Shown here: positions 98 through 13,531 of the stretch, piece after piece
Layout of the letters: each line of letters opens with the position of its first letter
How positions within the stretch are numbered: the first letter of the stretch is position 1
DNA from: Bifidobacterium eulemuris
Lineage (GTDB): Bacteria > Actinomycetota > Actinomycetes > Actinomycetales > Bifidobacteriaceae
Assembly (NCBI RefSeq): GCF_014898155.1
Contig: NZ_CP062938.1
Coordinates: 558,001-622,000 of the forward strand
Reading direction: 5' to 3'
Length of the DNA stretch: 64,000 nucleotides
The notes under the pieces: generated by a model
What the model was told of the DNA's origin: nothing
Databases searched by the model: none
Seen by the model: the letters and a program-made list of their open reading frames with translations, nothing else
Made by a program: the position numbers and the translations under genes

Positions 98-134
98 GAT
101 GGTTTCTCCTTATCGTGTTTTGGTGTGGGTTTTC
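93..134 (-). repeat. Copy A of the 42-bp tail/stop/RBS/start repeat
   Basis: This block matches 1263-1304 with one mismatch (position 124 against 1294). It contains the last codons of one gene (ending KTR), its TAA stop, the GGAGAAACC ribosome binding site and the ATG of the next gene. Weaker similarity continues into the upstream coding sequence for the shared C-terminal tail. Confidence 0.9.
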
Positions 135-1267
135 GAGGGATTGTCGCGTGTGGCGGATTGTCCTTCGACCCGCGCGTCCGCGCGTTGCTTGATGCCGTCG
201 AGCACGCTTGCTTTGTCCTTGTGCGGTTCGGTCTCCGCCGGCGACTGCTGCTGTTGCGTCGTCGGCTGGGGATAGCCGTCCAGCGGATCGTATGGTTGCC
301 CACCGAATGTTCTGGGAATACCGTCGCCTCTATATTCGCCTCGGTCGGAATTCAATTCCCAATCCAGCGGGTCAATGCTCCAGGGATCGTCTTGCGTATC
401 GATGGCAGTGGCAGATGCCTGCAATGCCGGCTCCGATGATTGTTGTTCAGGCGTGGAGGATGTTGGCTGCTCCTGCTGCGGTGCTTCGTGCGTCGTTTCC
501 GGTGTCGGCTCCGTTTTCTGCTGGTTGTTTTGCTTGGCGTGCGCGATGTATTCGTCCCGCTGAGCTTTGACGGCGCGGCATAGGGTCCAGGGGTCGTCGA
601 TGGTCAGCGTCTCGCGTTGTTCGCCAGCGCCGCGCCATAGGGTGACGGCTTCGCCCGGCTTGAAGCTCACGGTCACGGGCCTACCGTTGAGTTTGTCTTC
701 CTTGGATGATCGGCCCATGAAACGGTCGATTTGCCATCCGCCCATGTCGATGCCGTTGACGAACGTGCCCTTCGGGATGCTCACGCGCATCATCTCCCAT
801 TCGCGTCCGTCCCTCGCGGTGCGGGTGAACGGATGCACGAAGCTGTTGGGGAAATTGACGCGGGGCCAGATCTCCCGTTTGGGTTTCTTCGAGGTGTCCT
901 GGGAGAGTTGGAGCGAGTTGACTTTTTCCGCCGTCTGCGCGTCCCAATTGGCGTCGCTCCATGTCTGTTTGACGATGGTTTGCACGGCGAAGTTCATGCT
1001 TGTCACCGTCGCGAGGTCGGTCAATGTGTTGGATCGCATGATGCTGGCGTGGTAGCCGTTCTCGACCGGCGTGACCGCGCCCATCGCGACGAGCGCGCCC
1101 GCGTTGACGCTTGAGTAGAGACGCCACCGGTCCTCGCCCGGCACTTGTCCGATGATGACGGTCACCGTGTCTCCCGTCACGGTGTCGAAGGCCAGCGTCG
1201 TCGTGGGCACGTCGGCCAGTCCGGCTTCGGAGAGTTGGGCCGCCGTGATGTTGGGTGTCTGTTCCAT
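110..1267 (-). CDS. Unknown mobile-element protein with disordered linker and basic C-terminal tail
   Basis: The product is 385 aa and I do not recognise its family. Residues 1 to about 250 look folded, with a conserved-looking section FPNSFVHPF ... SIPKGTFVNGIDMGGW ... GRPVTVSFKPG. Residues about 255-345 are rich in Q, P, E and T and probably disordered. The last 35 residues form a basic tail (DGIKQRADARVEGQ ... KTHTKTR) closely matching the tail of the PcfB-like neighbour and resembling that of the AbiEii-like protein. It starts 12 bp after its neighbour with an RBS copied from the repeated 42-bp block. An accessory role in conjugation is inferred from the operon only. Confidence 0.75.
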   Translation of the reverse strand: MEQTPNITAAQLSEAGLADVPTTTLAFDTVTGDTVTVIIGQVPGEDRWRLYSSVNAGALVAMGAVTPVENGYHASIMRSNTLTDLATVTSMNFAVQTIVKQTWSDANWDAQTAEKVNSLQLSQDTSKKPKREIWPRVNFPNSFVHPFTRTARDGREWEMMRVSIPKGTFVNGIDMGGWQIDRFMGRSSKEDKLNGRPVTVSFKPGEAVTLWRGAGEQRETLTIDDPWTLCRAVKAQRDEYIAHAKQNNQQKTEPTPETTHEAPQQEQPTSSTPEQQSSEPALQASATAIDTQDDPWSIDPLDWELNSDRGEYRGDGIPRTFGGQPYDPLDGYPQPTTQQQQSPAETEPHKDKASVLDGIKQRADARVEGQSATRDNPSKTHTKTR

Positions 1268-1304
1268 GATGGTTTCTCCTTATCGTGTTTTGGCGTGGGT
1301 TTTC
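1263..1304 (-). repeat. Copy B of the 42-bp tail/stop/RBS/start repeat
   Basis: Partner of the repeat at 93-134. It covers the KTR end of the PcfB-like gene, its TAA stop, GGAGAAACC and the ATG of the next gene. Two successive operon junctions therefore share the same DNA module. Confidence 0.9.
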
Positions 1305-2182
1305 TTGGGCACGGAGGTCTTCTGGCCTTCGACGCGCTCCCTCGCGCGCTGTTTGATGGCCTTGATGGTCTCCGATTTGGTTTTCACATGCCGTGGCTTT
1401 TCCTCTGCCTGTTCGGGCGCGGGCATGTCACGGCTTGCGGTGTCGTGTTCCTGCGTCGGATGCATGTTGATGCGGCTCCAATCAAGTCCCGGCACGTATT
1501 CGTTGAAGTCGTTGAGCATTTCCGCCACGGCGTTGGAGCATTCCCTGGGATACGTGAATCGTTGGGTGGTTTCGCTGATCTGCTCCTGTTTGAATGGGCA
1601 TCCGAGTTCCGTGAGGTTGGATGAGACGATTGTGGCGTCGCGATCCCATTCCACGGTCTCGAAGTCGAACGTTCCGTTGTCCGGACTGTCCGGATTGAAC
1701 GGCACCTGCCCGTTGGGGATGGTGTACTGGGGACCCGTCGGAGTGTCCTCAAAAATTCCTAGGGGCGTGGACCGTTCGATCTCTTCCGCGTTTTGGTTGA
1801 GCAGGGCGACCACTTTATCGACCGCGTGCTTTACCTCGTCGGCGTCTTTGGCCGCGAAGTGCAGATACGTCTTGCCTGTCTCGCGGTCGCGTTCGATGTG
1901 GAACGCGACGCCGCTTTTCTTGAGCTGCTTGACGATGTTGCGGGATTCGTCCGCTTCGATCTCCACGACCTTGAGTGTGCCGCTGTCGCGTTGCAGGTCA
2001 CGGAGGAAGGCGAAGCCTCCGCTGCGGCGTAGCTCCTCGATTTTGTCTTTGGCGGTCTTCGCGCAAAGGCCCAGCGAACGGAACAGCGTTGACGTGCCCC
2101 ATTTGCCGAGTTCCATGACGGCTTTTGTGCCGTTTTCCGCGATGCGGATGACGTATTCCTGTGCTTGGTCTTCCACCGGCAT
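1280..2182 (-). CDS. PcfB-like (DUF3801-type) conjugation accessory protein
   Basis: 300 aa. Residues about 5-135 resemble the DUF3801/PcfB family: a GT-containing helical start, then FLRDLQRDSGTLKVVEI, a KQLKKSGVAFHIERD strand-helix, and a DADEVKHAVDKV helix. In Gram-positive conjugative elements PcfB accompanies the VirD4-type coupling protein and helps deliver relaxase-bound DNA to the type IV channel. The middle (140-255) is not recognised. The C-terminus carries the shared basic tail IKQRARERVEGQ ... KTHAKTR. An AAAGGAG site precedes the ATG. It lies just downstream of the relaxase; a coupling protein would be expected left of the window. The family call rests on pattern recognition. Confidence 0.6.
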   Translation of the reverse strand: MPVEDQAQEYVIRIAENGTKAVMELGKWGTSTLFRSLGLCAKTAKDKIEELRRSGGFAFLRDLQRDSGTLKVVEIEADESRNIVKQLKKSGVAFHIERDRETGKTYLHFAAKDADEVKHAVDKVVALLNQNAEEIERSTPLGIFEDTPTGPQYTIPNGQVPFNPDSPDNGTFDFETVEWDRDATIVSSNLTELGCPFKQEQISETTQRFTYPRECSNAVAEMLNDFNEYVPGLDWSRINMHPTQEHDTASRDMPAPEQAEEKPRHVKTKSETIKAIKQRARERVEGQKTSVPKKTHAKTR

Positions 2183-2205
2183 GTATGCTCCTTTCTGTCG
2201 GTTCG

Positions 2206-2221
2206 GCGGACTTTTGTCCGC
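2206..2221. other. Small hairpin between relaxase and PcfB-like gene
   Basis: GCGGAC-TTTT-GTCCGC is a 6-bp stem with a four-base loop in the short gap between the relaxase stop (2227) and the next start (2182). It may process or partly terminate the transcript. There is no clear U-tract. Confidence 0.5.
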
Positions 2222-2226
2222 TACTT

Positions 2227-3663
2227 TTAGCTTCGTCCTCGATGCCGGTGTTTTTGGGCGGACATTTCCTGTTGTTTCCGCTGCTGCTCGTTGTCGCTGC
2301 GTCGCATGAGGCGTCGCAGCGCGATCGCGTTGCGCGCGGTTTCGGCGCTATGGGTCTCGATCTGCACGAGCTGGAGTTCGAGCTGTGTCGTGTCGTCGCC
2401 GTGGTCCCGCGCTTCCGCGATCGCGGCGATCAGCGCGCGCATCTGGATGCCGTCTGATTCGACTTGCGCGGAGAGTTTGTCATATGCCTGCTGTCGTGTG
2501 TCTCCGGCACGCAAGGTGCGGCTGATCGCACGCAGTTCGTCCAGGCTGGATTCGATTTGGTCGCATGCGATGGCTTGGGCGATGGCGCGTCTTCCCAAGC
2601 CTCTGAGGTCGGACGGGTCGAGACGCCGCCGCGCGTAGTCCTCGATGCGGAAACTGGGGCGCGCGAACCACTTGTAGAGGTCGTCGCATTCCACCGTCCG
2701 CTTGTATCCGCCTTCGGGGTCGGTAATCACTTGGCGTGTGTCTTCGGGGAGATACGCGCGCCAGGTGCGTCCGTCTCGCACGATGCGGTCGATGGGGATG
2801 GTCAGCAGCAGTTTGCGGTGCGATCCCGGCAACCAGACCCGCACTTTGCCGTCACCGCGTTTGGCGATCATGCTTTGGTCGAAGCCAATCACGTTGAATG
2901 TGTCCCTGCCGATTTTGCCCATAACGCCCAGCTCGTTGTATCCGATGCCTAACCGGATGTCTCGGATGCGACGGTTCGAGTCCGCGAGTATGTAAGTGAG
3001 GTGGCTGCCGCGAACGTTCACCTCGATGCCTTTCACGGCGAGTTCTCGTTTGAATTCATCGAACGTTCCAGCTGTTGCGCATGCACGGTCGATCATCACG
3101 CACAATGCGTCTTTAAAGCTTTCGCCTCTGGCGGTTAGCTGCACTTCCTCCATGCTTGGCTCGGCGCGTTCCTTTGTGGTCGCGGGAATGACGTTCAACC
3201 CGATTTCCGCGCATAGCTTGTCGCTGATTTCCCGCCATTGCTTGAGGGAGCCTTTTTGGACTCTGATGTTTTTGTGCGTGATGTTGTTGTTCGGACATAG
3301 CAGGATGTGGTTGTGCAAGTGGTCTTTGTCCACATGCGTCGCGATCACGTAGTCGTGCGCGCCGCCGCTCAGCTCCTCGATGAATCGGACGCCGAGGCTG
3401 TGCGCTTCGTCGGCGGTGATGGGATCGTTTGGATCAAAACTTTGGATGATGTGATGTGCCAACACCGCGTTCTCCCTTTTGGCTCCGCCTTTGGCACGGT
3501 CAAGCGCCATCAGAAACGCTTGCGCCATCGCGTCGGGATTTTTTACGCGCTCCCCTGTCGTCGTGCTCACTAGGCGGTAGTTTTCCGTCTTGGCGGGATT
3601 GGTGATGTATGCCATCGTTTTTTGCAGCGTGGTTTTGATTTGTTTGACTTTTACGTACGCCAC
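2227..3663 (-). CDS. mobA: Relaxase / mobilization nuclease
   Basis: 478 aa. The N-terminal 200 residues form a relaxase of the MobA/VirD2-like mobilization nuclease family. AHHIIQSF (69-76) and the metal-binding triad segment HVDKDHLHNH (110-119) are clear; Tyr3 or Tyr19 are candidate nucleophiles. The family nicks one strand at oriT, stays covalently bound to the 5' end and pilots it through the mating channel. The C-terminal third is helical and charged, ending QKHRHRGRS, as expected for a transport signal. The start overlaps the mobC 3' end by 13 bp, and the oriT-like palindrome lies just upstream of mobC. Confidence 0.9.
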   Translation of the reverse strand: MAYVKVKQIKTTLQKTMAYITNPAKTENYRLVSTTTGERVKNPDAMAQAFLMALDRAKGGAKRENAVLAHHIIQSFDPNDPITADEAHSLGVRFIEELSGGAHDYVIATHVDKDHLHNHILLCPNNNITHKNIRVQKGSLKQWREISDKLCAEIGLNVIPATTKERAEPSMEEVQLTARGESFKDALCVMIDRACATAGTFDEFKRELAVKGIEVNVRGSHLTYILADSNRRIRDIRLGIGYNELGVMGKIGRDTFNVIGFDQSMIAKRGDGKVRVWLPGSHRKLLLTIPIDRIVRDGRTWRAYLPEDTRQVITDPEGGYKRTVECDDLYKWFARPSFRIEDYARRRLDPSDLRGLGRRAIAQAIACDQIESSLDELRAISRTLRAGDTRQQAYDKLSAQVESDGIQMRALIAAIAEARDHGDDTTQLELQLVQIETHSAETARNAIALRRLMRRSDNEQQRKQQEMSAQKHRHRGRS

Positions 3664-4052
3664 GACAACTCCTCATTCCCGATACGCATGTCGCGTTCCA
3701 TACGCTTGAGGCATCCCTTGATTTCCTCAAGCTCCGCCTGCAATTCGCGTAGGTCTGCGCTGTCCGCTTGGTTCTTGAGGTTGACCTTGTGTGCTATCTG
3801 ATTGATGTTGTTGCCGATGCGTGAGATCTGGCTGGATAAATCCTTGGCACCGGGTGGTGCTGCGATCCATAGGCGTCGCGATGTTATGAGTCTTTGTCGG
3901 GCGAACTGCATCCAGCCGACCGTCGGCAGTCCCGTCGCCGCACGTTGTTGGTTCTCGATTTTTCGTGAGTCCTCAAGCCAGCGAAGCTCTTCGTCGGTGA
4001 ATGTCACCGACCTGCGATGAGGACGGCTTCTGTTTCCTTTCCAAGATGCCAT
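3651..4052 (-). CDS. mobC: MobC-like relaxosome accessory protein
   Basis: 133 aa. The start is the ATG at 4052, preceded by GAAAGGACATACAG; an upstream in-frame ATG at 4157 would run through the oriT-like palindrome and is not preferred. The N-terminus is basic with RSVTFTDEELRWLE, typical of a ribbon-helix-helix or MobC DNA-binding segment. The end carries SSQISRIGNNINQIAHKVN, the characteristic MobC helix, followed by a short coiled coil. MobC proteins bind oriT and help the relaxase open the nic region. Its 3' end overlaps the relaxase start, so the two are translationally coupled. Confidence 0.85.
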   Translation of the reverse strand: MASWKGNRSRPHRRSVTFTDEELRWLEDSRKIENQQRAATGLPTVGWMQFARQRLITSRRLWIAAPPGAKDLSSQISRIGNNINQIAHKVNLKNQADSADLRELQAELEEIKGCLKRMERDMRIGNEELSWRT

Positions 4053-4141
4053 CTGTATGTCCTTTCGTTTGTATCGGGTGCGGGTGTCCCGCTCATGGCC
4101 GCGAGGCCGTGCCGGGCGACCCGTCAGGTCCGTCAGGTCGC

Positions 4142-4198
4142 GCAGGTGTACGTACACCTGCTATGCTCGCTACGACAAAACCTCCCCTCTGGGAGGGG
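4142..4198. other. Candidate origin of transfer (oriT)
   Basis: A perfect 20-bp palindrome (GCAGGTGTACGTACACCTGC, 4142-4161) is followed by CTATGCTCGCTACGACAAAA and a second hairpin (CCTCCC-CTCT-GGGAGG, 4181-4196). This pair lies 90 bp upstream of mobC-mobA, where oriT is usually found. The short unpaired segment between the two would hold the nick. The nic base cannot be fixed from sequence. The remainder of 4053-4364 shows no gene. Confidence 0.6.
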
Positions 4199-4328
4199 TT
4201 TGAAATCCACGGTTTTTTCGTTGATTCGAGCAGCGATTAGGGTATGGGTTCGGTGTGGTTTTCGTCATGACCCTCCTGCATGTCCGTGTGATGGCCCGTT
4301 ATGATTTTGCGTGCGTGCAATGCTGTTT

Positions 4329-4339
4329 TTGGGCGGACA
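4329..4339. repeat. TTGGGCGGACA repeat, copy 2 of 4
   Basis: The 11-mer TTGGGCGGACA also occurs at 2254-2264 and 6629-6639, and inverted at 7867-7877. Copies 1 and 2 share 18 identical bases (G, five T, then GGGCGGACATTT). All four lie inside the element, at or near gene borders. Confidence 0.8.
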
Positions 4340-4364
4340 TTTTCACGGTTTTGGATATGAGAAA

Positions 4365-4382
4365 GGCCGGCGAAGGCCGGCC
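4365..4382 (-). terminator. Intrinsic terminator after topB
   Basis: Read on the minus strand, GGCCGGC-CTTC-GCCGGCC is a 7-bp GC stem followed by TTTCTC, 28 bp past the topB stop. It would separate topB from the mob operon. Confidence 0.7.
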
Positions 4383-4409
4383 GAAATGTTGTTCCACGCG
4401 TCGCGGAGA

Positions 4410-6563
4410 TCAGTCGAACTGCATGCGTACGCCGCGTTCCTCATCGATGACGAGCGTCGCGGCGAAGGCTTTGCCGGTTCGTTTGCTGACGAATCCTGAC
4501 AGCTTCACCGCTTTTCCCGCGAGGAGTTTGCCGATGACGGAATCGGTAAGTTTCTTGCCGCTGAGTGTGGAGTAGATTTTGAATCCGCATCCGCCGGCCT
4601 GCTGCCATTGTCCGCTTTCGGTCTTCTCGCTTTTGTTGCTGGAGCATTGCCAGACACTGCCGGTTTTAATCACGTCTTCTCCGCATCGAGGGCATGCGCC
4701 GAGGCTCGCGCGGCGTGGTCCCGTGCTGATGGATTCGGTGCGCATCGAGGCTTGCACGTCGTGCGGTATCCTCGCGCACATGGCGCGAATTCCATCAAGG
4801 AAAACCGCTGATTGTATGCGGCCGTGCTCGATGTCGGAGAGCTGCGCTTCCATGCTGGCGGTGAGTTCGACGCTTTTGAGTTCCGGCGAAACCACATCGA
4901 TGAGCAGGCGTCCCTCATCCGTCGATACAAGCTGCTTGCCTTTGCGCTGGAGGTACTGGTTTCGCACGAGTTTTTCGATGATTTCAGCCCTTGTCGCAGG
5001 CGTGCCGATGCCGCCGGAATGCGATGCGTCATCATCGAGCGCGGCCTTCATGTCCTTATCTGCGACGAAGCGGCTGGCGTGCTCCATCGCCGCCAGCAAC
5101 GTAGCTTCGGTGTAGGGTTTCGGCGGCGCGCTGACGCCTTCCTCCAATGAGATCGCGTGCGCGCCCACCGGTATGCTCTGCCCTTCCATCAGGGATGATG
5201 GGATGGAGGGGGCGGCTTGTTCGTCGGTTTGCGGTCCGTCGATGAGACGCCATCCCGGATCCACCGGCATATCGCTCGATGCGGTCAGCAGGTGCTCGGT
5301 GATGTGGTCGAAGCATGCCGTGACGCTGGTGGTGTCGTGTGTGTATTCCGGCGAGCAGGCCGCCCACATGCGTTGCACGATACGGCATGCAACCAGTCGT
5401 TCATGCTCGCCCATCGATGCCAGGCTTGCCTGTGTGAGACGCTTGGTCGGTAGGATCGCGGTGTGGCCCGAGACCTTGTCGTCCGCGACGCATGCCGAGG
5501 GATTGAGCCTGTCTGTGTTCCGGTATTCCCGGACGGCTTCGGCGACCGTCACCGGCATCAGTTCATCCAACGATTCAGAGCGCGTCAGGGCCTCCAGTTC
5601 GGCGAGGTCGTCGTGCGTGATGTGGCATGAGTCGGTGCGTGGATAGGTGGTCAGCTTGGCGAGATACAGACGTTCCAACGCCTCCAGCGTCTGCGCCGCC
5701 GTCAGCCCGTGCAAGCGCGACATATCCTTTTGCAGGCCGGTCAGATCATAGAGGGTGGGTGCGTGGGTCTTCACTCGTTTGCGTTCCACTGACAGCATGT
5801 TGACCGATCGCCCTTGCGCTTCCGCGAGCAGGCTTTCGGCCTCGCTGCGGATGTTGATTTTGTCTTTGCTTCGCAGCTTCCATCCGCCCATGTCGATGGC
5901 GATTCGCCAGAACGGGGTCGGCTTGTGCTCGGCGATGGCGCGGTCCCGTTCCACCACCATCGCCAGTGTCGGCGTCTGCACGCGGCCCACCGATAGACGC
6001 CGGTGGTAGGCGATGGTGTTGGCGCGTGTGGCGTTCATGCCCACAAGCCAGTCGGCCTTCGCCCTGGCATCGGCTGCTGCCGCCAGACCGTTGTATTGGC
6101 TGCTGGGGAGCATGTTGTTCCATGCGTCGCGGATGGCTTGTTCTTCCAGGCTCGCGACCCATAGCCTTGATGATGGTTTGGCGGTCTGCGCGCGGTCGAT
6201 GATGCGTCGGAATATCGCTTCGCCTTCGCGGTCGGGATCGCAGGCGTTGACGATTTCGGTGATGTCAGGGCGTCGGATGAGGTCGGCCAGGTCTCGGTAT
6301 CTGCGGCTTGCGCCTTTGTCGGTGCTGACCTGCCAAAGCCATTGCTGCGGGTCGATGGGCAACTGTTCCATGCTCCATCGTTCCGCCGCCCACGGCATAC
6401 CGTCGTATTGGTCAGGGGTGGCGAGTTCCACGAGATGCCCCTGCGCCCATGACACGATGACATCTCCGGCTTGTATATATCCGTCGGATGGTATTGGGCT
6501 GCTTTCCAGTGCCTGCGCGATTGCCACGGCGACTGATTTTTTCTCCGCGATGACGAGCCTCAT
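4410..6563 (-). CDS. topB: Type IA DNA topoisomerase (topoisomerase III-like)
   Basis: 717 aa from the ATG at 6563, which follows GAAAGGAACGGAACC. The TOPRIM domain starts MRLVIAEKKSVA and includes DPDREGE (109-115). The active-site tyrosine lies in TTYPRTDS (Tyr307), and the C-terminus has a CPRCG zinc-finger-like segment (from about 615). TopB-family enzymes cut and pass single strands. Conjugative elements of Gram-positive bacteria often encode one, probably to unlink or remodel DNA during transfer. It is a stand-alone transcription unit between a terminator and the nuclease-like gene. Confidence 0.93.
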   Translation of the reverse strand: MRLVIAEKKSVAVAIAQALESSPIPSDGYIQAGDVIVSWAQGHLVELATPDQYDGMPWAAERWSMEQLPIDPQQWLWQVSTDKGASRRYRDLADLIRRPDITEIVNACDPDREGEAIFRRIIDRAQTAKPSSRLWVASLEEQAIRDAWNNMLPSSQYNGLAAAADARAKADWLVGMNATRANTIAYHRRLSVGRVQTPTLAMVVERDRAIAEHKPTPFWRIAIDMGGWKLRSKDKINIRSEAESLLAEAQGRSVNMLSVERKRVKTHAPTLYDLTGLQKDMSRLHGLTAAQTLEALERLYLAKLTTYPRTDSCHITHDDLAELEALTRSESLDELMPVTVAEAVREYRNTDRLNPSACVADDKVSGHTAILPTKRLTQASLASMGEHERLVACRIVQRMWAACSPEYTHDTTSVTACFDHITEHLLTASSDMPVDPGWRLIDGPQTDEQAAPSIPSSLMEGQSIPVGAHAISLEEGVSAPPKPYTEATLLAAMEHASRFVADKDMKAALDDDASHSGGIGTPATRAEIIEKLVRNQYLQRKGKQLVSTDEGRLLIDVVSPELKSVELTASMEAQLSDIEHGRIQSAVFLDGIRAMCARIPHDVQASMRTESISTGPRRASLGACPRCGEDVIKTGSVWQCSSNKSEKTESGQWQQAGGCGFKIYSTLSGKKLTDSVIGKLLAGKAVKLSGFVSKRTGKAFAATLVIDEERGVRMQFD

Positions 6564-6628
6564 TGGTTCCGTTCCTTTCAGTGATGGAGTACATTCCGTA
6601 TCCATCCTCACGCCCAACTGACGGATTT

Positions 6629-6639
6629 TTGGGCGGACA
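6629..6639. repeat. TTGGGCGGACA repeat, copy 3 of 4
   Basis: Located 66 bp upstream of the topB start and just after the stop of the 6663-7805 gene. Same 11-mer as at 2254, 4329 and (inverted) 7867. Confidence 0.8.
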
Positions 6640-6662
6640 ATTAAAGGCTCGGAATCAATGTT

Positions 6663-7805
6663 TTAGAAGATAAACGGATCCAGTGGCCCGTCCAACAACG
6701 GGGTTTTCGGATGTGTCATTTCCCATTGCTGAATTAGATGCCGCCATACGCGAGCACGTGCGAACCTGTTTAAGGAGTTGCCATCTTTATCTGTTTTTAG
6801 CGGTAGTTGGAAGACAAGCACCCTGTTTTGTAGATCGAGAATGTCTTCCTCCTTGAGCTTGCTGATTGGATATGTCCACGCTTTGCCCAGCCGTGGATTC
6901 CACACTCCTAATAGTTCGATGTTTTTGTATTCGAGATGTTTGGAATGTAATCCCAACTGCCAATACATCAGCAGCTGCAAACGATGCTTTGCCGTGGGAG
7001 ACCCTTTGCTGCATTTGAAATCCCATAAGCCGTTTTGCATCACGGTATCGCAGTCGCCGAAGGCAATGACTTCTGTGTATCCGCCGTGAAATGTGTTCAT
7101 TCCTGTGAACGCTGACCCGTATCGATTCATGAATCGTTGGCTGCGTTCGATCATAGTTCGAATATTCCCGATTGTAATACTGTCCATCTCAGGCAGATGG
7201 TCCAAGGGGAAATAAGCGCCAATGCCTCTTCTGTATATGCAGTCGAACGATGCCAGATTCATCGCCGCCTTTATTGAGGTGTCATCCAATCCCGTGATTT
7301 GATCCAGATAGTCGGGTATTTTTTCGGATTCACGCGCCGCTATTCCTCCGACGGTCTCCGGCTTGAGGCCCAGTTTTTCAGCACTTTTCCTTGCCTTCTC
7401 TCCACCAATTATCGGTATTGAAAAGGCTTGCTCTTTCGATGTTCCTTGCATGTAGCGTGTGAGGTAGTCCACCGTAATTCCAACCAACGCGGGACTTCTG
7501 TTTTCGGCTTTGATGTCAGTCAGATCCTTTCCGTCCTCGAAAGACTCAACATCCATCTCTTTAAGTCGGAAGTACCCGCCGTACGGTTGCTTCACATATG
7601 GGACATAGGTGACGCCCATGTCCCGCACTCCATTGATTCGGTGCGTCACGGACAGTCCACCTGCCAAAAGTCCCCGCAAGGCTCCTTGGTCCAGTTGAGG
7701 CAGAATGTCCTCCACTTCTTCCACACGATAGATATACAGTGAGGTGTCGGGGTTATCGGACAATTCTGCATAGAACGCTGCATCGGAGTCGATTTCTTTT
7801 TCCAT
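6663..7805 (-). CDS. PD-(D/E)XK (RecB/Cas4-like) nuclease-type protein
   Basis: 380 aa. The C-terminal half holds GDCDTVMQNGLWDFKCSKG (about 250-268), fitting the D...(D/E)xK core of the restriction-endonuclease-like fold, followed by HRLQLLMYWQLG, the QxxxY-like helix of RecB-family nucleases. The N-terminal half is not recognised. DNA cleavage or processing in element biology is therefore likely but unproven; a defence role is possible. GC and codon use are lower than in chromosomal genes. The 131-bp gap to the divergent gene at 7937 contains an inverted TTGGGCGGACA site. Confidence 0.6.
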   Translation of the reverse strand: MEKEIDSDAAFYAELSDNPDTSLYIYRVEEVEDILPQLDQGALRGLLAGGLSVTHRINGVRDMGVTYVPYVKQPYGGYFRLKEMDVESFEDGKDLTDIKAENRSPALVGITVDYLTRYMQGTSKEQAFSIPIIGGEKARKSAEKLGLKPETVGGIAARESEKIPDYLDQITGLDDTSIKAAMNLASFDCIYRRGIGAYFPLDHLPEMDSITIGNIRTMIERSQRFMNRYGSAFTGMNTFHGGYTEVIAFGDCDTVMQNGLWDFKCSKGSPTAKHRLQLLMYWQLGLHSKHLEYKNIELLGVWNPRLGKAWTYPISKLKEEDILDLQNRVLVFQLPLKTDKDGNSLNRFARARVWRHLIQQWEMTHPKTPLLDGPLDPFIF

Positions 7806-7866
7806 AACGTAGATCTCCTCATGTGGTAATCATCGTTGACTAGGTTCATTCTATATTCGCGCACAT

Positions 7867-7877
7867 TGTCCGCCCAA
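7867..7877. repeat. TTGGGCGGACA repeat, copy 4 of 4 (inverted)
   Basis: TGTCCGCCCAA lies in the divergent intergenic region between the nuclease-like gene (minus) and the 7937 gene (plus), where a shared regulator could act on both. Confidence 0.8.
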
Positions 7878-7936
7878 TCTAAAGAGTCATCGGACATATG
7901 GTGGATTTACCGATATTCGAATGAAAGGATTGGAAA

Positions 7937-8323
7937 ATGGCGAAGCCGAGTGAACGTAACAGGGCGATGCGTGAGCTTGCCGATGAGTCTGTGGATGCCG
8001 AGATTGAGGCGTTGCGCGCCAAGCGTGATTCGTTGCGCGCGGTCGGTGTGAAGCTGGATGATCTGCGTTGGGCGATCGAGCAGTTTCGTGTCGCCGCTGA
8101 TGACTTCATCGCAACGAGCGGTTCGACGCGGAGGTATTTGCAGGACACGTTGAAGATCGATAAACGTGAGATGAATATCGTGTGGCCTCCGACGGGAAAA
8201 CGGAAGAATGAAGCCTCCGATGAGCCTCAGCCGCCGGCGGACCAGGTGGAGAGTCAGGATCACGGCCAGTCTGATTATTCCGTGTCTGGAGAGTCTGGTT
8301 TTGTTCCTGGCTATGCGGGATAA
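7937..8323 (+). CDS. Unknown small helical protein
   Basis: 128 aa, start supported by GAAAGGATTGGAAA. Residues 5-75 are charged and helical, probably a coiled coil (ELADESVDAEIEALRAKRDSL ... DDLRWAIEQFRVAADDF). Residues 85-128 are polar and likely disordered. No membrane segment or catalytic motif is visible. It is one of only two rightward genes in the visible part of the element, followed 46 bp later by a membrane protein, so the two may be cotranscribed. Confidence 0.6.
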   Translation: MAKPSERNRAMRELADESVDAEIEALRAKRDSLRAVGVKLDDLRWAIEQFRVAADDFIATSGSTRRYLQDTLKIDKREMNIVWPPTGKRKNEASDEPQPPADQVESQDHGQSDYSVSGESGFVPGYAG

Positions 8324-8369
8324 TCACCGTGTGATGGTGTGACGGATTCCGATTGGAGGCGTGATAGCG

Positions 8370-8735
8370 ATGCCTATTATTGGATTGATGCTGCTTGGCA
8401 TAAGCCTGGTGTTTTGGCTGATCGGTTTGGCCGTGTCCGGTGTCAACGCGCTTGTGTTCGCGGTGACCCATCCGATTCGCGCCGTGGTCCGATTGGTCGC
8501 GACTTTGTGCATCGTCATCGCGACGATCGCGCTCATCGTCGTGGCGGTCTACGCGTACAATGTCTGGTTCGCCTCGACGCCTGACTGGCGGCTCGATGAG
8601 ACGTTTTGGGTGGCCGTCGCCGCTTTGTTCGTCGGTGGTCTCGCCAATCGTGGCTTGATGGAACTGGATCTCGTGTTGGAGCGGCGCGCGTATGAGCGTC
8701 AGATGCGGCGGCTGAATTATTCCGATGCCGATTAA
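8370..8735 (+). CDS. Unknown small membrane protein
   Basis: 121 aa. I prefer the ATG at 8370, nine bases after GGAGGC; a GTG at 8361 is too close to that site. Two strong membrane helices (about 3-25 and 40-65) are followed by a third hydrophobic stretch (80-95) and a basic, charged C-terminus. No family recognised. Small membrane proteins of this kind in conjugative elements may belong to the channel or to entry exclusion; that is inference. Confidence 0.6.
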   Translation: MPIIGLMLLGISLVFWLIGLAVSGVNALVFAVTHPIRAVVRLVATLCIVIATIALIVVAVYAYNVWFASTPDWRLDETFWVAVAALFVGGLANRGLMELDLVLERRAYERQMRRLNYSDAD

Positions 8736-8757
8736 CGGTCGTGGTGTGGTTTCCGTC

Positions 8758-8894
8758 GGTGCCGGGTATGGCGACATGCGCAAGTGTTTTCAGCTTGCGC
8801 ATGCCAGGAGGAGGGGCATAATTTTCTGCCCCGACGACGCAGATCCGACGCGCCGAACTTGTTCGCGCGCGGCGGATTCGCCATACCCGGCACC
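8758..8894. other. Highly structured non-coding block (single-strand origin or structured RNA candidate)
   Basis: A perfect 17-bp inverted repeat (GGTGCCGGGTATGGCGA at 8758-8774 and its complement at 8878-8894) closes a region with three internal hairpins: a perfect 10-bp stem at 8775-8784/8794-8803, a 6-bp stem at 8813-8818/8827-8832 that exposes AGGAGGAGG beside it, and a weaker GC-rich hairpin at about 8843-8877. Together they would form a four-way-junction shape. It lies between two converging genes. As single-stranded DNA it could be a priming origin of a transferred element; as RNA it could be an element-encoded non-coding RNA. Confidence 0.65.
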
Positions 8895-8914
8895 GTTTGC
8901 AAAAGTGCTTTGCT

Positions 8915-8992
8915 CCGTGTTCGGCGCGGCCTCCGTCGCCGCGCCGGACACGGTCCGTGTGGTGGTTTCGTCCGCCGCGCCCTATGGGCGCG
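8915..8992. other. Second structured block: 16-bp and 7-bp stem-loops
   Basis: A 16-bp stem (8915-8930 with 8938-8953, one mismatch that becomes G-U in RNA, loop of 7) is followed by CGCGCCC-TAT-GGGCGCG (8976-8992). With the neighbouring 8758-8894 block, nearly the whole 277-bp intergenic gap is self-complementary. A simple bidirectional terminator would not need this much structure. Confidence 0.65.
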
Positions 8993-9012
8993 ACGGTGAC
9001 GGAAGGTGGTCG

Positions 9013-9435
9013 TCACAGCGGCGGCAGTTCGTCGTAGCTGTGTTCCACGAGGTCATGAAAGCGGTCGAGTTCGGTTTTCGGTAGGATGGTTTTCCTTGTC
9101 GAATCGTTTTGTTTTTCATGCCACATGATTTCCAAGGCCTCCCACTCGCTTGTGCGCACGGAACTCATGCTGATTTTCGCGTCCACGCATAGCAGAGCTT
9201 TGTAGAAGCTCTTCGGGTTTTCGTCGAGCATCGTTTTAATCATGTTGATGTATGGCTGTATTAGATTGACTTCCACGCTGGCTTCCATCATTTCTTCGAT
9301 TGGTTTGCTCAGACAGTCTTTGTAGTGTTTTTTCGGCACTCTGGTTTGCTGGTAGGCGTAGGTCATATCCTCCATCGCTCCGGCCATCTTCTCGATGGTC
9401 TGCGTGCGGAAGTCATCGAAATAGTGCTTGCTCAT
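9013..9435 (-). CDS. Unknown element protein
   Basis: 140 aa; start supported by AAGGAGCAACA before the ATG at 9435. The protein is soluble and mostly helical (MSKHYFDDFRTQTIEKMAG), ending in acidic YDELPPL. No catalytic motif or family recognised. It is cotranscribed leftward after the DUF4192-like gene, with an 11-bp GC hairpin (9459-9483) in between. Confidence 0.6.
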   Translation of the reverse strand: MSKHYFDDFRTQTIEKMAGAMEDMTYAYQQTRVPKKHYKDCLSKPIEEMMEASVEVNLIQPYINMIKTMLDENPKSFYKALLCVDAKISMSSVRTSEWEALEIMWHEKQNDSTRKTILPKTELDRFHDLVEHSYDELPPL

Positions 9436-9458
9436 TGTTGCTCCTTGATGGTTGTGGG

Positions 9459-9483
9459 GCCGGCCCTCCGTGGGAGGGCCGGC
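9459..9483. terminator. Strong GC hairpin downstream of the DUF4192-like gene
   Basis: GCCGGCCCTCC-GTG-GGAGGGCCGGC is a perfect 11-bp stem ten bases past the stop at 9493. A U-tract is absent, so it may be a weak terminator or an mRNA-processing hairpin before the 9435 gene. Confidence 0.55.
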
Positions 9484-9492
9484 GGTTGGTGG

Positions 9493-10080
9493 TTAGAGGT
9501 ACATCGGTCGGATGTTGCCTTCGACGGCGAAGAACACGATGCTCGCTAGGGCGCATTCGGGGTCTACGCTGAGGGCGGCCAAGGCTCCAGCCGAGGCCGC
9601 TTGCGTGTGTCCTTGTATCCATGACAGGTAGGCTCGTGAGGCTATCGGTTGCGCGGACCATTGTTCTCCGGCGTAGTCGGCGGCGAAGCGTGAGAGTTGG
9701 GAGCTTGCTCGTTCCACACGGGGTGTGTCCAGTCGGTAGTCCGCGGATTCGAAAGCCTCTTCGAGTGTTTTGGTGATGAGCGCCACCGTTTGTTTTCTGT
9801 GTTGGCGGGTGGCGATGTCGAGCAGTTGCGTCGGGGTGAATCGTTTGAGGGATGAGAGGATTATCGCGTCCCGGAATGGGAGGGAATGGGCCATGAGCAT
9901 GACGGTCAGGGTCGATGTGTGGTCATCGAGCGGATGGCCGGTTTCCAGTGTTCTCGCCCATTGCGTGAGGACTGGGTGCATCCATTCGCGGTCGGTTTTC
10001 CTGATGCCGTTTTCACGGCATTCTCTGCGGTATTCGATGGTGAGGGTGTCGATATCGGGGCTGGTTCTTCTGGTGTCCAT
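9493..10080 (-). CDS. DUF4192-like protein
   Basis: 195 aa from the ATG at 10080, which follows GAAAGGAAATCTC; the ORF is open further upstream but without a site. MLMAHSLPFRDAIIL (about 75-90) and the C-terminal AYLSWIQGHTQAASAGALAA match the pattern of the actinobacterial DUF4192 family, whose function is unknown. DUF4192 genes occur on chromosomes and mobile elements of actinomycetes. No enzyme motif is visible. It heads a leftward two-gene unit, and a 297-bp non-coding space lies upstream. Confidence 0.55.
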   Translation of the reverse strand: MDTRRTSPDIDTLTIEYRRECRENGIRKTDREWMHPVLTQWARTLETGHPLDDHTSTLTVMLMAHSLPFRDAIILSSLKRFTPTQLLDIATRQHRKQTVALITKTLEEAFESADYRLDTPRVERASSQLSRFAADYAGEQWSAQPIASRAYLSWIQGHTQAASAGALAALSVDPECALASIVFFAVEGNIRPMYL

Positions 10081-10377
10081 GAGATTTCCTTTCTTGTCTC
10101 GGTTTTTCGGACACCACCCGCCTGCCATGTCGTAGCGAAGGCGACGAAGGCGTGGATCGCGACGCTGCGATCGGAATGGAGATGGCATCATTCATGCCAT
10201 CGGAATGGAGAGCGGGAGCGGCGTGAGACACGGCGAGGAACCGTAGCGGAGACGTGGCATGCTGGTGGTGCCCGAGACAGTGCCCTTGTGCTTCGGCCCG
10301 TCCCGCGCGAGCTTGCGAGCGGCAAAAGAAGAGGCCATGCGCGAAGCGCATGACCTGAGGGCCGGCGGAAATGTCAA
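10081..10377. other. Non-coding region with hairpins and short direct repeats
   Basis: No convincing gene. It holds GATGGCAT-CATTC-ATGCCATC (10181-10201), flanked by the direct repeat ATCGGAATGGAG (10170-10181 and 10199-10210), and a second hairpin CATGCGC-GAA-GCGCATG (10336-10352). The DUF4192-like promoter must lie at its left side. Base composition is GC-rich, unlike the adjoining AbiE genes. Confidence 0.55.
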
Positions 10378-11346
10378 TCAGATTCCTCGGTTACGGTTCT
10401 TCCGTACTTGGTCTGACGTGTGTGATTGCTCATCGATTCTGTTTTGAGCACGAGATTTTATCTGTGCCAGTATGGTTTTCTTCTGACTGACTTCTGGTTT
10501 CCATGGAGTCCTCCGACTTGCCTCGCATATCTCTTTTTCCGCTCGTTCCGTGATATGAGTGAAGGTTTCGTCATCGCCCCCTTCCTGATTGCGGAAGAGC
10601 TGCTGTAGCGTGGACTTATTGGGGATGTCATACGGTTGTTTGATTTCGCGTATTTCCATTTCGAACGCCAGCAGGGATCGGTATAGTTCAAGATTTCCCT
10701 CGCCGTCTAGGACGGGGAATAAGCGAACCATGTCGGTAAGATCGCTCGGCCGAGGATCTTTGGATGAGTACAACGCTGCGGTCTTCTGTGCCAATTGTGC
10801 TTCAACATCCAATAGCCTGGCTCCTGCCGGTTCTTCGAATCCCAGGTACTTCATCAAAGCTACGGAGTCGTCGGAGATACGGTAGGACGATGATGACCGT
10901 TCGTAGCCTTGAGCAGGGGTGATGTCCAACGGAAGAGTAGAGAACGACTTCCCTAGATAACGAAGTTTGATGTTCTTATAGATCACGTTGGGACGACCTG
11001 GATCACGCTCGTTTTTTTGCGTTTCTCCTTTGCCCCGGTCTTCCAGGGAACCGTCAAAGCCATTGGTTCCTTTTGCCAATCGAGCACGAAATTCGGTCTC
11101 CCATTCCAAGTAGCTGTCACCGAAGACCAGATCGAGATCCTTCGACATTCGAGAATCCTCCAGGGGGAAACGCAGGCCTAACGCATTGCCTCCCTTGATG
11201 ACGGTTCCTTCGGGCACGAGCTGCGAGACGATAATGACGGCGATCATCTTTTGAAGTCGTGCAAAAGGAATCCCCGTCTTATTCGCATGATGGTTGAGTT
11301 TGGCCGTGATGCCTCCGGAACTTGGCAGTTTCTTTTCCTGGTTCAT
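10378..11346 (-). CDS. abiEii: AbiEii/AbiGii-type nucleotidyltransferase toxin with extra C-terminal tail
   Basis: 322 aa. Residues about 50-80 contain the nucleotidyltransferase core KGGNALGLRF ... SKDLDLVF (GG followed by DxD), typical of AbiEii toxins of type IV toxin-antitoxin systems, which modify an RNA target and stop growth. The last ~40 residues (TILAQIKSRAQNRIDEQ, then a basic end) resemble the tails of two conjugation-operon proteins 9-10 kb away and look like an added transfer or binding signal. Its ATG overlaps the antitoxin stop by 4 bp, as is usual for this family. GC is lower than in neighbours, suggesting separate acquisition. Confidence 0.82.
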   Translation of the reverse strand: MNQEKKLPSSGGITAKLNHHANKTGIPFARLQKMIAVIIVSQLVPEGTVIKGGNALGLRFPLEDSRMSKDLDLVFGDSYLEWETEFRARLAKGTNGFDGSLEDRGKGETQKNERDPGRPNVIYKNIKLRYLGKSFSTLPLDITPAQGYERSSSSYRISDDSVALMKYLGFEEPAGARLLDVEAQLAQKTAALYSSKDPRPSDLTDMVRLFPVLDGEGNLELYRSLLAFEMEIREIKQPYDIPNKSTLQQLFRNQEGGDDETFTHITERAEKEICEASRRTPWKPEVSQKKTILAQIKSRAQNRIDEQSHTSDQVRKNRNRGI

Positions 11347-11897
11347 ACGATCACACCTTTCTTAAGCACGTCTCGTAACATGTCTGCCTGTATCGGTGAC
11401 AGCAGATTACGCTGTTCCGCTTCATCGACGGCCTCTAAACGGTAATCCAGACGCGTGTCTTTTGCTTCCAAAAACGCATCAGAAAGGTTCTGCAATCTGA
11501 TTCCTCGAATGACATCCACATTCCTCGACTGTCTACGATCATGGATGACGCGTAGCCATCCCGGTAATTTGCGCGATATATGGTGCGGCGTGCGCACTGT
11601 CGTCCATCGCGGATTGGCATTCGCAAGATTATAGAAATCAAGTACCGATGATCCGGACAAATATGACTCGTCTCCCGTCATCGCCAGCGCGGCTGCATAC
11701 GACGCATCCCGAGGATCGACGCCGTCGGCATCATAAACCATGTATACGCCGCCGCCCTGTTTGCCAATGATGTCATCATTGCGACGCGCGAACTGCCGTA
11801 AGGCCGATTCGGAATAGCCTAAAGCCTTAATATCTTTTACTGTCACGATACCGTTATTTTTCTTAGCGACATCTAATACAGCATTTTCCATCTTCAT
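11343..11897 (-). CDS. abiEi: AbiEi-type antitoxin / transcriptional repressor
   Basis: 184 aa. The N-terminal winged helix (VAKKNNGIVTVKDIKALGYSESALRQFARR) and the mixed C-terminal domain fit AbiEi antitoxins, which repress their own promoter and counter AbiEii. It is the first gene of the pair and overlaps the toxin by 4 bp. A likely promoter on the minus strand has TTGAAA, a 17-bp spacer and CAAAAT just before an AGAGGT site. The pair sits beside the integrase and may stabilise the element or block phage. Confidence 0.8.
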   Translation of the reverse strand: MKMENAVLDVAKKNNGIVTVKDIKALGYSESALRQFARRNDDIIGKQGGGVYMVYDADGVDPRDASYAAALAMTGDESYLSGSSVLDFYNLANANPRWTTVRTPHHISRKLPGWLRVIHDRRQSRNVDVIRGIRLQNLSDAFLEAKDTRLDYRLEAVDEAEQRNLLSPIQADMLRDVLKKGVIV

Positions 11898-11985: not shown

Positions 11986-13317
11986 TCAGGCGCTGATGCT
12001 CATTTCATGGCGCACCTTGACCAGGAACGTCTGGAGCCTCCGCATTTCGATTTCGGTGCTCTTTATCAGATCCTCATAGGGATTGCCCTCGGCATTCTGC
12101 GCGGGCCGCATATAATCGGCCGCGAGCAGATTAACCATCTCATCACGATGCTCGGCCACCAGGCGCTGATAATGCTTAATCGCGACTCTTTCGCTGGTAT
12201 GCCCCAGCTGCTCCATCACCTCCCGCAAGGTCGCCCCTTTGAGCATCAGCATCGTGGCATGCGAGGCGCGAAGCGTATGCGGAGTGATGTCCGGCCTGCC
12301 GGCAACCTCTTTCGCTTTATCGAATTGCTTCCGTAGAGTGTTCGGCCCGAGAACTCTTGTCCGCTTCGGCACGAACACCTGGGAATCCGGATTATCGAGA
12401 TTGCAAAAGGTCTTTAGATGCCGTTCGATGACCCAAACCAGGCTATCGGGGATAGGCACTGTCCTGACGCTGGATTTTGTTTTGGCCGGGGATAGCCGCA
12501 TCGATCCGAGATCGTCAGGCCCTCTGTTAACGGAATGTCGAACATTTAGTTTGCGATTGACGAGATCGATGTCTTTGACTCGCAAAGCGCAGACCTCGCC
12601 CCATCGCAGGCCTCCCACAAGAGCGGCCAGAAGCACGGATAGCTGCGTATAGTCCGGCATGGCGTCGTAGAGCGCCTGCAACTCCTGCGGAGTGACAGGT
12701 GGGATGCCTTCTCTGCTTGATTCCGGTGCAGGAGGCACGGGAAAGATGAAGGGATTATCCTCTCTCAGGGGCGCGGTCCCGTCCAGCTGCTCCATCGTCG
12801 CGGATCGGAAAATTGATTTCAGTCTCTGGCATGAGCGGTGGAATGCCCAGGGCCCCTCCGGGTGCGGTGAGTCAAGCCATTTCTTGATATCCGCCGGCGT
12901 GATGTCTTTAAGCAGTTTGTCCTGAAAGACTGGAAGAAAGTGCCCGATGTCGGCGCGGATGTTTCTGCGCGTGCTTCCCGCTATCGGCTGCCCATTGGAA
13001 AGGCGATAGTTTTGGAACCATATCTCAACGTAATCGCCGAACTTGATTCGTCGGCGCTTCTCTATTTGTTCTCTTTCCGTCGGATGTACCCAGGTCTCGA
13101 TGCCTTTGCGATGCATGGTGACCAACCAGTGTTCCTGGTCTAGCCATCGCTGTGCCTCGGCGCGAAGCTCTGGTTTGAACTGTCTCTGGACTTTTCGGCT
13201 ATCAATCGGACTGGTGTAGCGCGCCTGCCATCCGATCAGATCGCCTTGCTTGTCGTATCTGGCAATGATGGTGCCAAATTTGCTGCGTCGCGACTGTGTT
13301 TGGTTGAGAGCTGCCAT
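11986..13317 (-). CDS. int: Tyrosine recombinase / integrase
   Basis: 443 aa from the ATG at 13317, preceded by AAGGAGGCATAGCT. There is an N-terminal arm-binding region, a SAM-like core-binding domain (about 75-180), then the catalytic domain with GLRWGEVCAL (first Arg), TPHTLRASH (His-x-x-Arg), LGHTS and the nucleophile in IKHYQRL. This is the Tn916/phage-type integrase class that excises and inserts circular elements. Its 5' end faces the chromosomal pyk gene, so the right attachment site should lie between 13317 and about 13700. No tRNA gene is present there. Confidence 0.93.
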   Translation of the reverse strand: MAALNQTQSRRSKFGTIIARYDKQGDLIGWQARYTSPIDSRKVQRQFKPELRAEAQRWLDQEHWLVTMHRKGIETWVHPTEREQIEKRRRIKFGDYVEIWFQNYRLSNGQPIAGSTRRNIRADIGHFLPVFQDKLLKDITPADIKKWLDSPHPEGPWAFHRSCQRLKSIFRSATMEQLDGTAPLREDNPFIFPVPPAPESSREGIPPVTPQELQALYDAMPDYTQLSVLLAALVGGLRWGEVCALRVKDIDLVNRKLNVRHSVNRGPDDLGSMRLSPAKTKSSVRTVPIPDSLVWVIERHLKTFCNLDNPDSQVFVPKRTRVLGPNTLRKQFDKAKEVAGRPDITPHTLRASHATMLMLKGATLREVMEQLGHTSERVAIKHYQRLVAEHRDEMVNLLAADYMRPAQNAEGNPYEDLIKSTEIEMRRLQTFLVKVRHEMSISA

Positions 13318-13335
13318 AGCTATGCCTCCTTGTAA

Positions 13336-13397
13336 AACGCACGTTGTTGTGCGTTGAAGGCAGATTAATTTTGGAATGATGCACTTATCTGTGCATC
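13336..13397. promoter_or_regulatory. Twin GCAC-N6-GTGC inverted repeats upstream of int
   Basis: Two inverted repeats share the same layout: AACGCAC-gttgtt-GTGCGTT (13336-13355) and GATGCAC-ttatct-GTGCATC (13378-13397). Both have 7-bp arms, a six-base spacer and a GCAC/GTGC core, with centres 42 bp apart (about four helical turns). They could be integrase/Xis arm sites or operators for int. Confidence 0.6.
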
Positions 13398-13465
13398 TTC
13401 GCTTGCAGATGAGGCACACAAAAGAATGCCTGCAATCGCAGCGACCATAACGGGCGTAATACCGG

Positions 13466-13487: not shown

Positions 13488-13531
13488 TTTTTCCATGCTT
13501 TGGCTATTCCCCACCGGGGGCACGACTTGGA

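Follow-up and report, generated by a model that had tools for sequence, protein, structure and literature searches.

Why should unrelated proteins of one mobile element, a toxin among them, share the same C-terminal end? The question is raised by a stretch of 64,000 nucleotides in the 2.92-Mb genome of Bifidobacterium eulemuris (G000:C1:558001-622000; this whole stretch is called the window here), the start of which falls inside an integrative conjugative element. A sequence-only reading of the window had described one C-terminal pattern on three proteins and had proposed that it is a recognition signal. We found the pattern on all three, each encoded on the minus strand: a 385-aa protein of the family we call L (window 110-1267; tail bases about 113-211; C terminus ...VLDGIKQRADARVEGQSATRDNPSKTHTKTR), a 300-aa DUF3801/PcfB-like protein (1280-2182; PF12687, 8e-17; tail bases about 1283-1375; ...TIKAIKQRARERVEGQKTSVPKKTHAKTR), and an AbiEii-like nucleotidyltransferase toxin (10378-11346; PF08843, 2e-10; tail bases about 10381-10479; ...TILAQIKSRAQNRIDEQSHTSDQVRKNRNRGI). 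A fourth tail, VLELIRQRAENRVARQ, was found just outside the window on a 177-aa protein (family S; G000 556707-557240, minus strand) whose gene adjoins that of the coupling protein.

When a loose form of the core pattern was sought in the last 80 residues of the 818 open reading frames (ORFs) of at least 60 aa over 144 kb, it matched exactly the three proteins already described, and a profile built without the AbiEii tail recovered that tail at E 0.0033 among 1171 ORFs. The four tails of the window element align with an invariant I, R-A, R, and Q. A profile of all four gave four places in the genome at E 3e-18 to 1e-13, which are its own members, so that only the gap to the next match (E 0.4) counts. 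Between the AbiEii tail and the other three, 18 of 21 identical residues are encoded by different codons, and the likeness of the toxin is therefore not a recently copied patch of DNA. Among the three conjugation-protein tails, codons differ at 11 of 26 identical residues, a mixed count that is clear neither way.

DUF3801 was found in 35 of the 112 genomes of the genus (44 listed places), and the regions around 26 of the other places (20 plus six more, several of them near copies) were scanned. The DUF3801 protein and at least one neighbor end alike in 24 of these 26 regions, the partner tails having initially been chosen by eye; no tail partner was seen in the G099 region, and no tail at all in that of G067:C23, which has its DUF3801 gene at a contig edge. 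The tail version differs with the element type: IKQRAxxR in the window element, G003, and relatives, LLERFKTRLNENL in the G020 group, DALKLLDERAAAHL in a second element of G000, DTLAELRARIERKL in the G073 group, MDDFKNLLDKKTKEIL in G010, and others beyond these. Tails of DUF3801 and L proteins had a mean score of 54.8 against each other within their own element versus 34.8 between elements (n=8, P=5e-5); the values were 39.4 versus 28.9 for DUF3801 and S (n=9, P=0.004) and 38.8 versus 28.7 for L and S (n=6, P=0.012). In the E element, codon differences among the three conjugation-protein tails are few (0 to 2 of 9 to 12), and recent DNA copying may have taken place among such tails. In a sample of 396 genomes of the phylum, PF12687 had two matches, that of the window and one other.

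The tail is also carried by toxins and other cargo. The ORFs of each region were scanned with a profile made from the conjugation proteins of that element alone, and the tailed proteins included a zeta toxin in G003 (PF06414, 1.2e-31), which is identical to a Bifidobacterium aerophilum protein, Fic proteins in G020 and G060 (PF02661, 5e-17 for G020), and HipA-like proteins in the second element of G000 (PF07804, 8e-11) and in G010 (0.0074, under the family cut-off). The E tail was also read on a HipA of the G015 element (PF07804, 9.5e-10). A second AbiEii with a tail (PF08843, 3.7e-34) is encoded on a G010 contig (C54) that is 14.8 kb long and has an integrase-like ORF about 7 kb away from the toxin gene; judging from its tail version and integrase, this contig probably belongs to the G010 element. 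A tailed coiled-coil-like protein of 325 aa, without a family (G000:C1:1665920-1666897, plus strand), is encoded in the second G000 element, where the relaxase-DUF3801 genes run on the other strand. The zeta and Fic proteins contain GGQPGAGKT and HPFMDGNGRTGR, respectively, which we take to be their catalytic motifs. A toxin domain and the conjugation proteins of the same element are joined by a shared C-terminal tail. One toxin family can have different tails: the HipA cores of G015 and G010 are 43% identical and are followed by an E tail and an I tail, respectively, and the tail of AbiEii is of type A in the window and of type I in G010. The best match was the own element type for eight of nine cargo tails, the ninth (zeta) being best matched by a related type (permutation P 2.5e-4). 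In 16 further stretches that we scanned, no additional toxin with a tail was found. A match at E 0.005 upstream of the G003 element resembles a spurious frame. Near the integrase-like ORF on the G010 contig, an ORF at L199 6319-8019 (minus strand) resembles the gene of a Cascade large subunit (Cse1).

Relatives with and without the tail indicate how separable it is from the toxin domain. Among the 30 AbiEii C termini read from 55 places in the genus (a few frames may be broken or misread), two have the tail and 28 do not, which ruled out the tail as a normal part of AbiEii; for zeta, it is present at one of 15 loci read. The 16 Fic C termini read (17 places in 16 genomes, some frames being broken or partial) comprise two with the tail, one with a diverged end (G040), and others with none. 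The closest untailed Fic, in G069, is 93% identical up to the tail start, and its genome has no DUF3801 hit. In G015, the Fic protein is untailed, and the adjacent HipA has a tail close to that of the G020 Fic, including part of the distal linker. A Fic end with a tail remnant occurs in G040 about 3 kb from the Fic gene. We gave little weight to P0001, a 93% identical AbiEii relative without a tail, which comes from a 1705-base contig and is not explained by a simple frame shift of the window tail. Zeta relatives at 25 loci, Bifidobacterium included, have several basic ends, with a tail-like end in two Actinomyces; except for one weak match in Janibacter, no window-type coupling protein was found near the zeta loci outside B. 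aerophilum.

Some of these zeta toxins deserve a separate description. The tail-like Actinomyces ends (VRSKADVLGQIAERSK...) belong to L194 9896-10912 and L198 10200-10700, near which no window-type coupling protein was found, and other actinobacterial zeta toxins have basic ends resembling RDTGPTR. The 313-aa zeta toxins P0015 and P0020 have a tail-like extension of ~40 residues without a counterpart in the 272-aa P0014 and P0024; P0014 and P0020 are named as Actinotignum proteins.

Because the cargo tails had been found with profiles of their own type, we included a control with mismatched profiles. When 12 regions were scanned with their own type, 11 matches other than seeds appeared: two with shortened tails as seeds, one MobC at E 0.08, and eight cargo or accessory proteins, of which one is 169 aa long and from G098 and the other seven are listed above. 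From the 120 scans with a mismatched type came 42 matches, 11 of which are related IKxRA types finding one another, some with slightly better E values than the own type; the remainder are a few other accessory proteins and, for the most part, what look like spurious frames. Outside the IKxRA group, five of the six cargo candidates matched the profile of their own type and, at E<0.25, no profile of the other 10 types; the sixth, a HipA of G010:C54, was matched by no type. Shuffling of the tails gave P <=0.003 for seven of eight cargo proteins.

Three profiles (IKxRA, E, and I/H) were also run over the 112 genomes, with counts and distances taken by eye. All 68 places found by the IKxRA profile at E<=1e-4 are on DUF3801 contigs, within about 9 kb of the gene (next match, 6.7e-4), and all 17 places of the E profile at E<=3.1e-6 are within about 15 kb of DUF3801 (next, 1.7e-3). 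The I/H profile gave six places at E<=1e-12 (next, 0.033), five of them near DUF3801 and the sixth being the AbiEii of the 14.8-kb contig. The informative part of these scans is the absence of strong matches elsewhere, because the members of the profiles are themselves among the strong places. Weak matches elsewhere (E 0.0007 to 0.05 per genome) occur at chance expectation, and the weaker profile of the four window tails gave chance-level matches in 65 of the 112 genomes at E<=1, three of them without DUF3801 at E 0.002. The sequence-only reading would have been contradicted by clear tails in strains without conjugative elements; for the three tail groups scanned none was seen, every strong match except the one on the short contig being near a DUF3801 gene.

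The coupling proteins of these elements are of one kind. All 10 tested scored above the cut-off of NF045973 (NCBIfam CD1115); that of the window element, a VirD4-type protein (G000 554977-556707, in the minus-strand gene series), had 427 bits against a cut-off of 250. In the element regions read or scanned, no tail was seen on the coupling protein, VirB4, the CHAP hydrolase, or TopB, and MobC had a single doubtful match (G003, E 0.08).

Structure models are consistent with a helix followed by a loose end. The zeta model of G003 (29 sequences, pLDDT 91) matches the epsilon/zeta structures 1gvn and 3q8x with a TM score of 0.74 by query length and 0.81-0.82 by target length, and has a zeta fold with a Walker A motif. 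The tail core lies in its last helix (253-286), where confidence declines, and pLDDT is under 50 for residues 294-301. The model of the window DUF3801 protein is poor (mean pLDDT 52) and has a separate helix (269-286) after a loose linker, followed by an unstructured end.

Unrelated proteins, including several kinds of toxin, with a tail private to their element suggest that toxins are labelled to travel with the DNA into the next cell. What we observed is a common tail that tracks the element type, occurs on four toxin families, is present or absent at the end of near-identical Fic proteins, and goes with one family of coupling proteins; from this we infer that it acts as a signal, along with its receptor, its transfer, and its purpose. 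The proposal that conjugation proteins and toxin cargo share a recognition signal is thus well supported by the varied cargo, the dependence on element type, and the 10 coupling proteins of one family. Rather probably, the tail is a two-part secretion label of DUF3801/CD1115-type conjugative elements, onto which toxins have repeatedly been spliced. We favor a secretion label as the simplest way to account for private tail versions, for toxins being captured repeatedly, for channel parts that lack the tail, and for the parallel with BID toxins discussed below. In this label, a flexible basic end would come after a helix of ~20 residues. The tail version goes with the element type and would be read by one receptor, most likely the CD1115 coupling protein (alone or with DUF3801); accessory proteins and toxins of unrelated folds (AbiEii, zeta, Fic, and HipA-like) would in this way accompany the DNA across the type IV channel. 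The toxin would arrive with the DNA and the antitoxin would first have to be made from it, hence the recipient would depend on the element from the first minutes; such dependence from the moment of transfer is an idea of PMC5675462, applied here. A stricter form, to which we give slightly less than an even chance, treats the tails as private address labels of Gram-positive conjugative elements that work as lock and key. Every coupling protein would recognize the tail of its own element, a toxin of any kind could be recruited once it acquired that tail, and the toxins sent out with the DNA by gut bifidobacteria (AbiEii, zeta, Fic, and HipA-like) would therefore form a shifting assortment.

Several observations weigh against a secretion label. 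It is not obligatory, as the untailed Fic in G015 shows, and G000 has an untailed zeta 20 kb from its second DUF3801 gene; for the second HipA on the G010 contig (G010:C54), likeness to the tail did not reach significance (P=0.08). The relaxases encoded by the elements, although certain to cross, have basic ends without the tail helix, the nearest to the tail being just the two clostridial MobQ relaxases described below, and a Vescimonas AbiEi/AbiEii pair (L295 18682-20117, minus strand) lies directly beside a relaxase with its toxin untagged. The match to element type is imperfect: the own partner ranks first in its row for just 4 of 8, 3 of 9, and 1 of 6 comparisons (DUF3801-L, DUF3801-S, and L-S, respectively), the S protein of G047a is matched by types G and D and not by its own, and, within the IKxRA group, types B and D match the window AbiEii slightly better than its own type does, as type A does for zeta. 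The independent elements are few, the tagged toxins are all from one genus, and binding to the coupling protein and transfer of the tailed proteins are what we infer from the genes.

The tail could instead serve inside the donor, gathering proteins at the coupling protein, DUF3801, or the relaxosome without export, so that toxins are held at the channel and might, for example, act on the donor only during mating. DUF3801 and the protein beside the coupling gene are tailed and could be parts of a donor complex, and the relaxases of the elements lack the helix. However, the channel and relaxosome parts (VirB4, coupling protein, TopB, and MobC, apart from the one doubtful match) have no visible tail, toxins and very large accessory proteins have one, and splicing a toxin onto a docking tag brings no clear benefit without export; we consider donor-side docking unlikely. 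More doubtful still is a control tag, bound by a chaperone, protease adaptor, or neutralizer of the element so that tagged proteins remain stable, or do no harm, in the donor. It would agree with a tag that follows the element type and with the lack of a recognizable antitoxin gene beside the tagged Fic, zeta, and HipA (ORF lists, by eye), but the window AbiEii follows an AbiEi gene, the G010 AbiEii follows a candidate ORF that looks like AbiEi, accessory proteins are tagged too, and a near-identical Fic exists untagged.

To each of two further explanations we assign very little probability. Basic nucleic-acid-binding or low-complexity ends may have become alike through convergence or base composition, since the ends are rich in K, R, T, and Q and the DNA is GC-rich. 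Yet the pattern of hydrophobic and basic residues is ordered, and the mismatched-profile control, the P values of the shuffled tails, and the rarity of the tail elsewhere in the 112 genomes all speak against this; the shuffles, that control, and the genus scans ruled out chance likeness. Functionless shuffling of gene ends by recombination would account for tails so much alike on the Fic of one element and the adjoining HipA of another, for the Fic end and tail remnant in G040, and for the few codon differences among the conjugation tails of the E element. On the other hand, the tail version tracks the element type, and toxin and conjugation tails differ in codons at most identical residues (8 of 11 for Fic versus DUF3801), so these residues look to be kept by selection; recent DNA copying of toxin tails is ruled out by such codon differences.

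The general kind of system, toxins tagged for conjugative transfer, is already known. Toxins of toxin-antitoxin systems on Bartonella conjugative plasmids (FicT and PezT) have a C-terminal type IV secretion signal, BID, and transfer was shown for VbhT, according to PMC5675462, which also calls BID tagging repeated evolution, expects more cases, and describes short charged signals as hard to predict. VbhT and the other BID-tagged toxins are the closest known parallel, in that toxins of different families carry a C-terminal conjugative signal in both systems. The tag here differs in being ~35 residues long, in occurring in Gram-positive hosts on several accessory proteins, and in varying by element type; AbiEii and HipA-like toxins are added to the set, and transfer is a prediction. 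In PMC6509941, toxins and relaxases have in common a bipartite signal for type IV secretion, made up of a BID domain and a positively charged end; both signals thus have a structured part and then a basic end, a four-helix bundle in BID and a single short helix here. The BID family was absent from the matches of the Pfam scans made, and a four-helix bundle would not fit into so short a tail. Proteins of the F plasmid conjutome are cotransferred with DNA, and their signals can be C-terminal and positively charged; in the passages of PMC11288057 consulted, these signals vary, are partly internal, and include no shared element-specific tail, unlike the shared tail here. Travel of a toxin with the DNA, shown for one Bartonella toxin and expected for more in PMC5675462, can be tested by means of this tail.

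The window system also differs from the AbiE type IV toxin-antitoxin system, which has the same AbiEi-AbiEii pair, in the C-terminal tail added past the AbiEii domain. To our knowledge, the export signals used by Gram-positive conjugation machines remain ill defined, and, from a limited literature search that supports no claim of absence, we know of no short, element-type-private tail in Gram-positive elements that is common to accessory proteins and four families of toxins. With a tail recognizable in the sequence, the proteins that such elements deliver to recipients could be predicted directly; the tail would also account for the existence of tailed and untailed members of a single toxin family.

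Clostridial-type elements with PcfB/DUF3801 and a CD1115 VirD4 protein, which we take to be Tn1549-like, have the same gene neighbors and an analogous common tail, but the tail sequence differs. We found them in G056 (same genus), in G483 (same phylum), and in Vescimonas and Monoglobus plasmid records. Their tail, KPSIRxxL...K..(D/E)xE(V/L), occurs on PcfB, on a 314-317-aa protein (G056, Monoglobus, and Vescimonas), and on very large proteins (815 to 2162 aa) that include YodL and ArdA; in Pusillibacter, it was seen on PcfB only. In the clostridial-type regions read, no toxin with this tail was seen, and the sole AbiEii there is untagged. In Subdoligranulum plasmids, nested units encode two MobQ relaxases with similar ends (E 0.009 and 0.59 among 564 ORFs), and a close Vescimonas relative fell below that match list. 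The nested-unit MobQ relaxases with ends like the tail of the host element (L296 14803-16572, L297 6238-7818, and L292 26034-27614) look as if they were borrowing its label.

The remaining genes of the window element fit a conjugative element, with DUF3801, relaxase, MobC, VirB4-like ATPase, and CHAP hydrolase all present. The minus strand encodes, in order, the integrase, AbiEi/AbiEii, further genes, TopB, MobC, the relaxase, DUF3801, the 385-aa protein, three short frames, the 177-aa protein, and the coupling protein; the VirB4-like ATPase (matched as P-loop_TraG, 7e-10) and the CHAP hydrolase are on the plus strand. The relaxase (window 2227-3663; PF03432, 1.5e-29) has a basic C terminus in which no tail helix was seen, and no tail was seen on MobC (3651-4157; PF05713, 1.5e-11) or on the topoisomerase TopB (4410-6617; PF01131, 8e-97). 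The AbiEi-like antitoxin gene (11343-11897; PF13338, 5e-6; no tail seen) is directly upstream of AbiEii and overlaps its start, both Pfam families of the pair being matched. The 385-aa L protein has no Pfam or NCBIfam match and has similar proteins at the equivalent position in other elements; a 380-aa protein inside the element (6663-7805, minus strand) also has no match in either database. The putative integrase (11986-13419, minus strand), recognized from its sequence, matches ORFs in L182, L199, and L200 when used as a query. Beside it, at 13510-13523, lies a 14-base repeat of the 3' end of the tRNA-Leu(CAA) gene at G000 535843-535919, a match that on its own could be chance and that marks the probable right end of the element. 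Because this repeat recurs beside the integrase, the element probably extends about 36 kb from the tRNA-Leu gene to the repeat.

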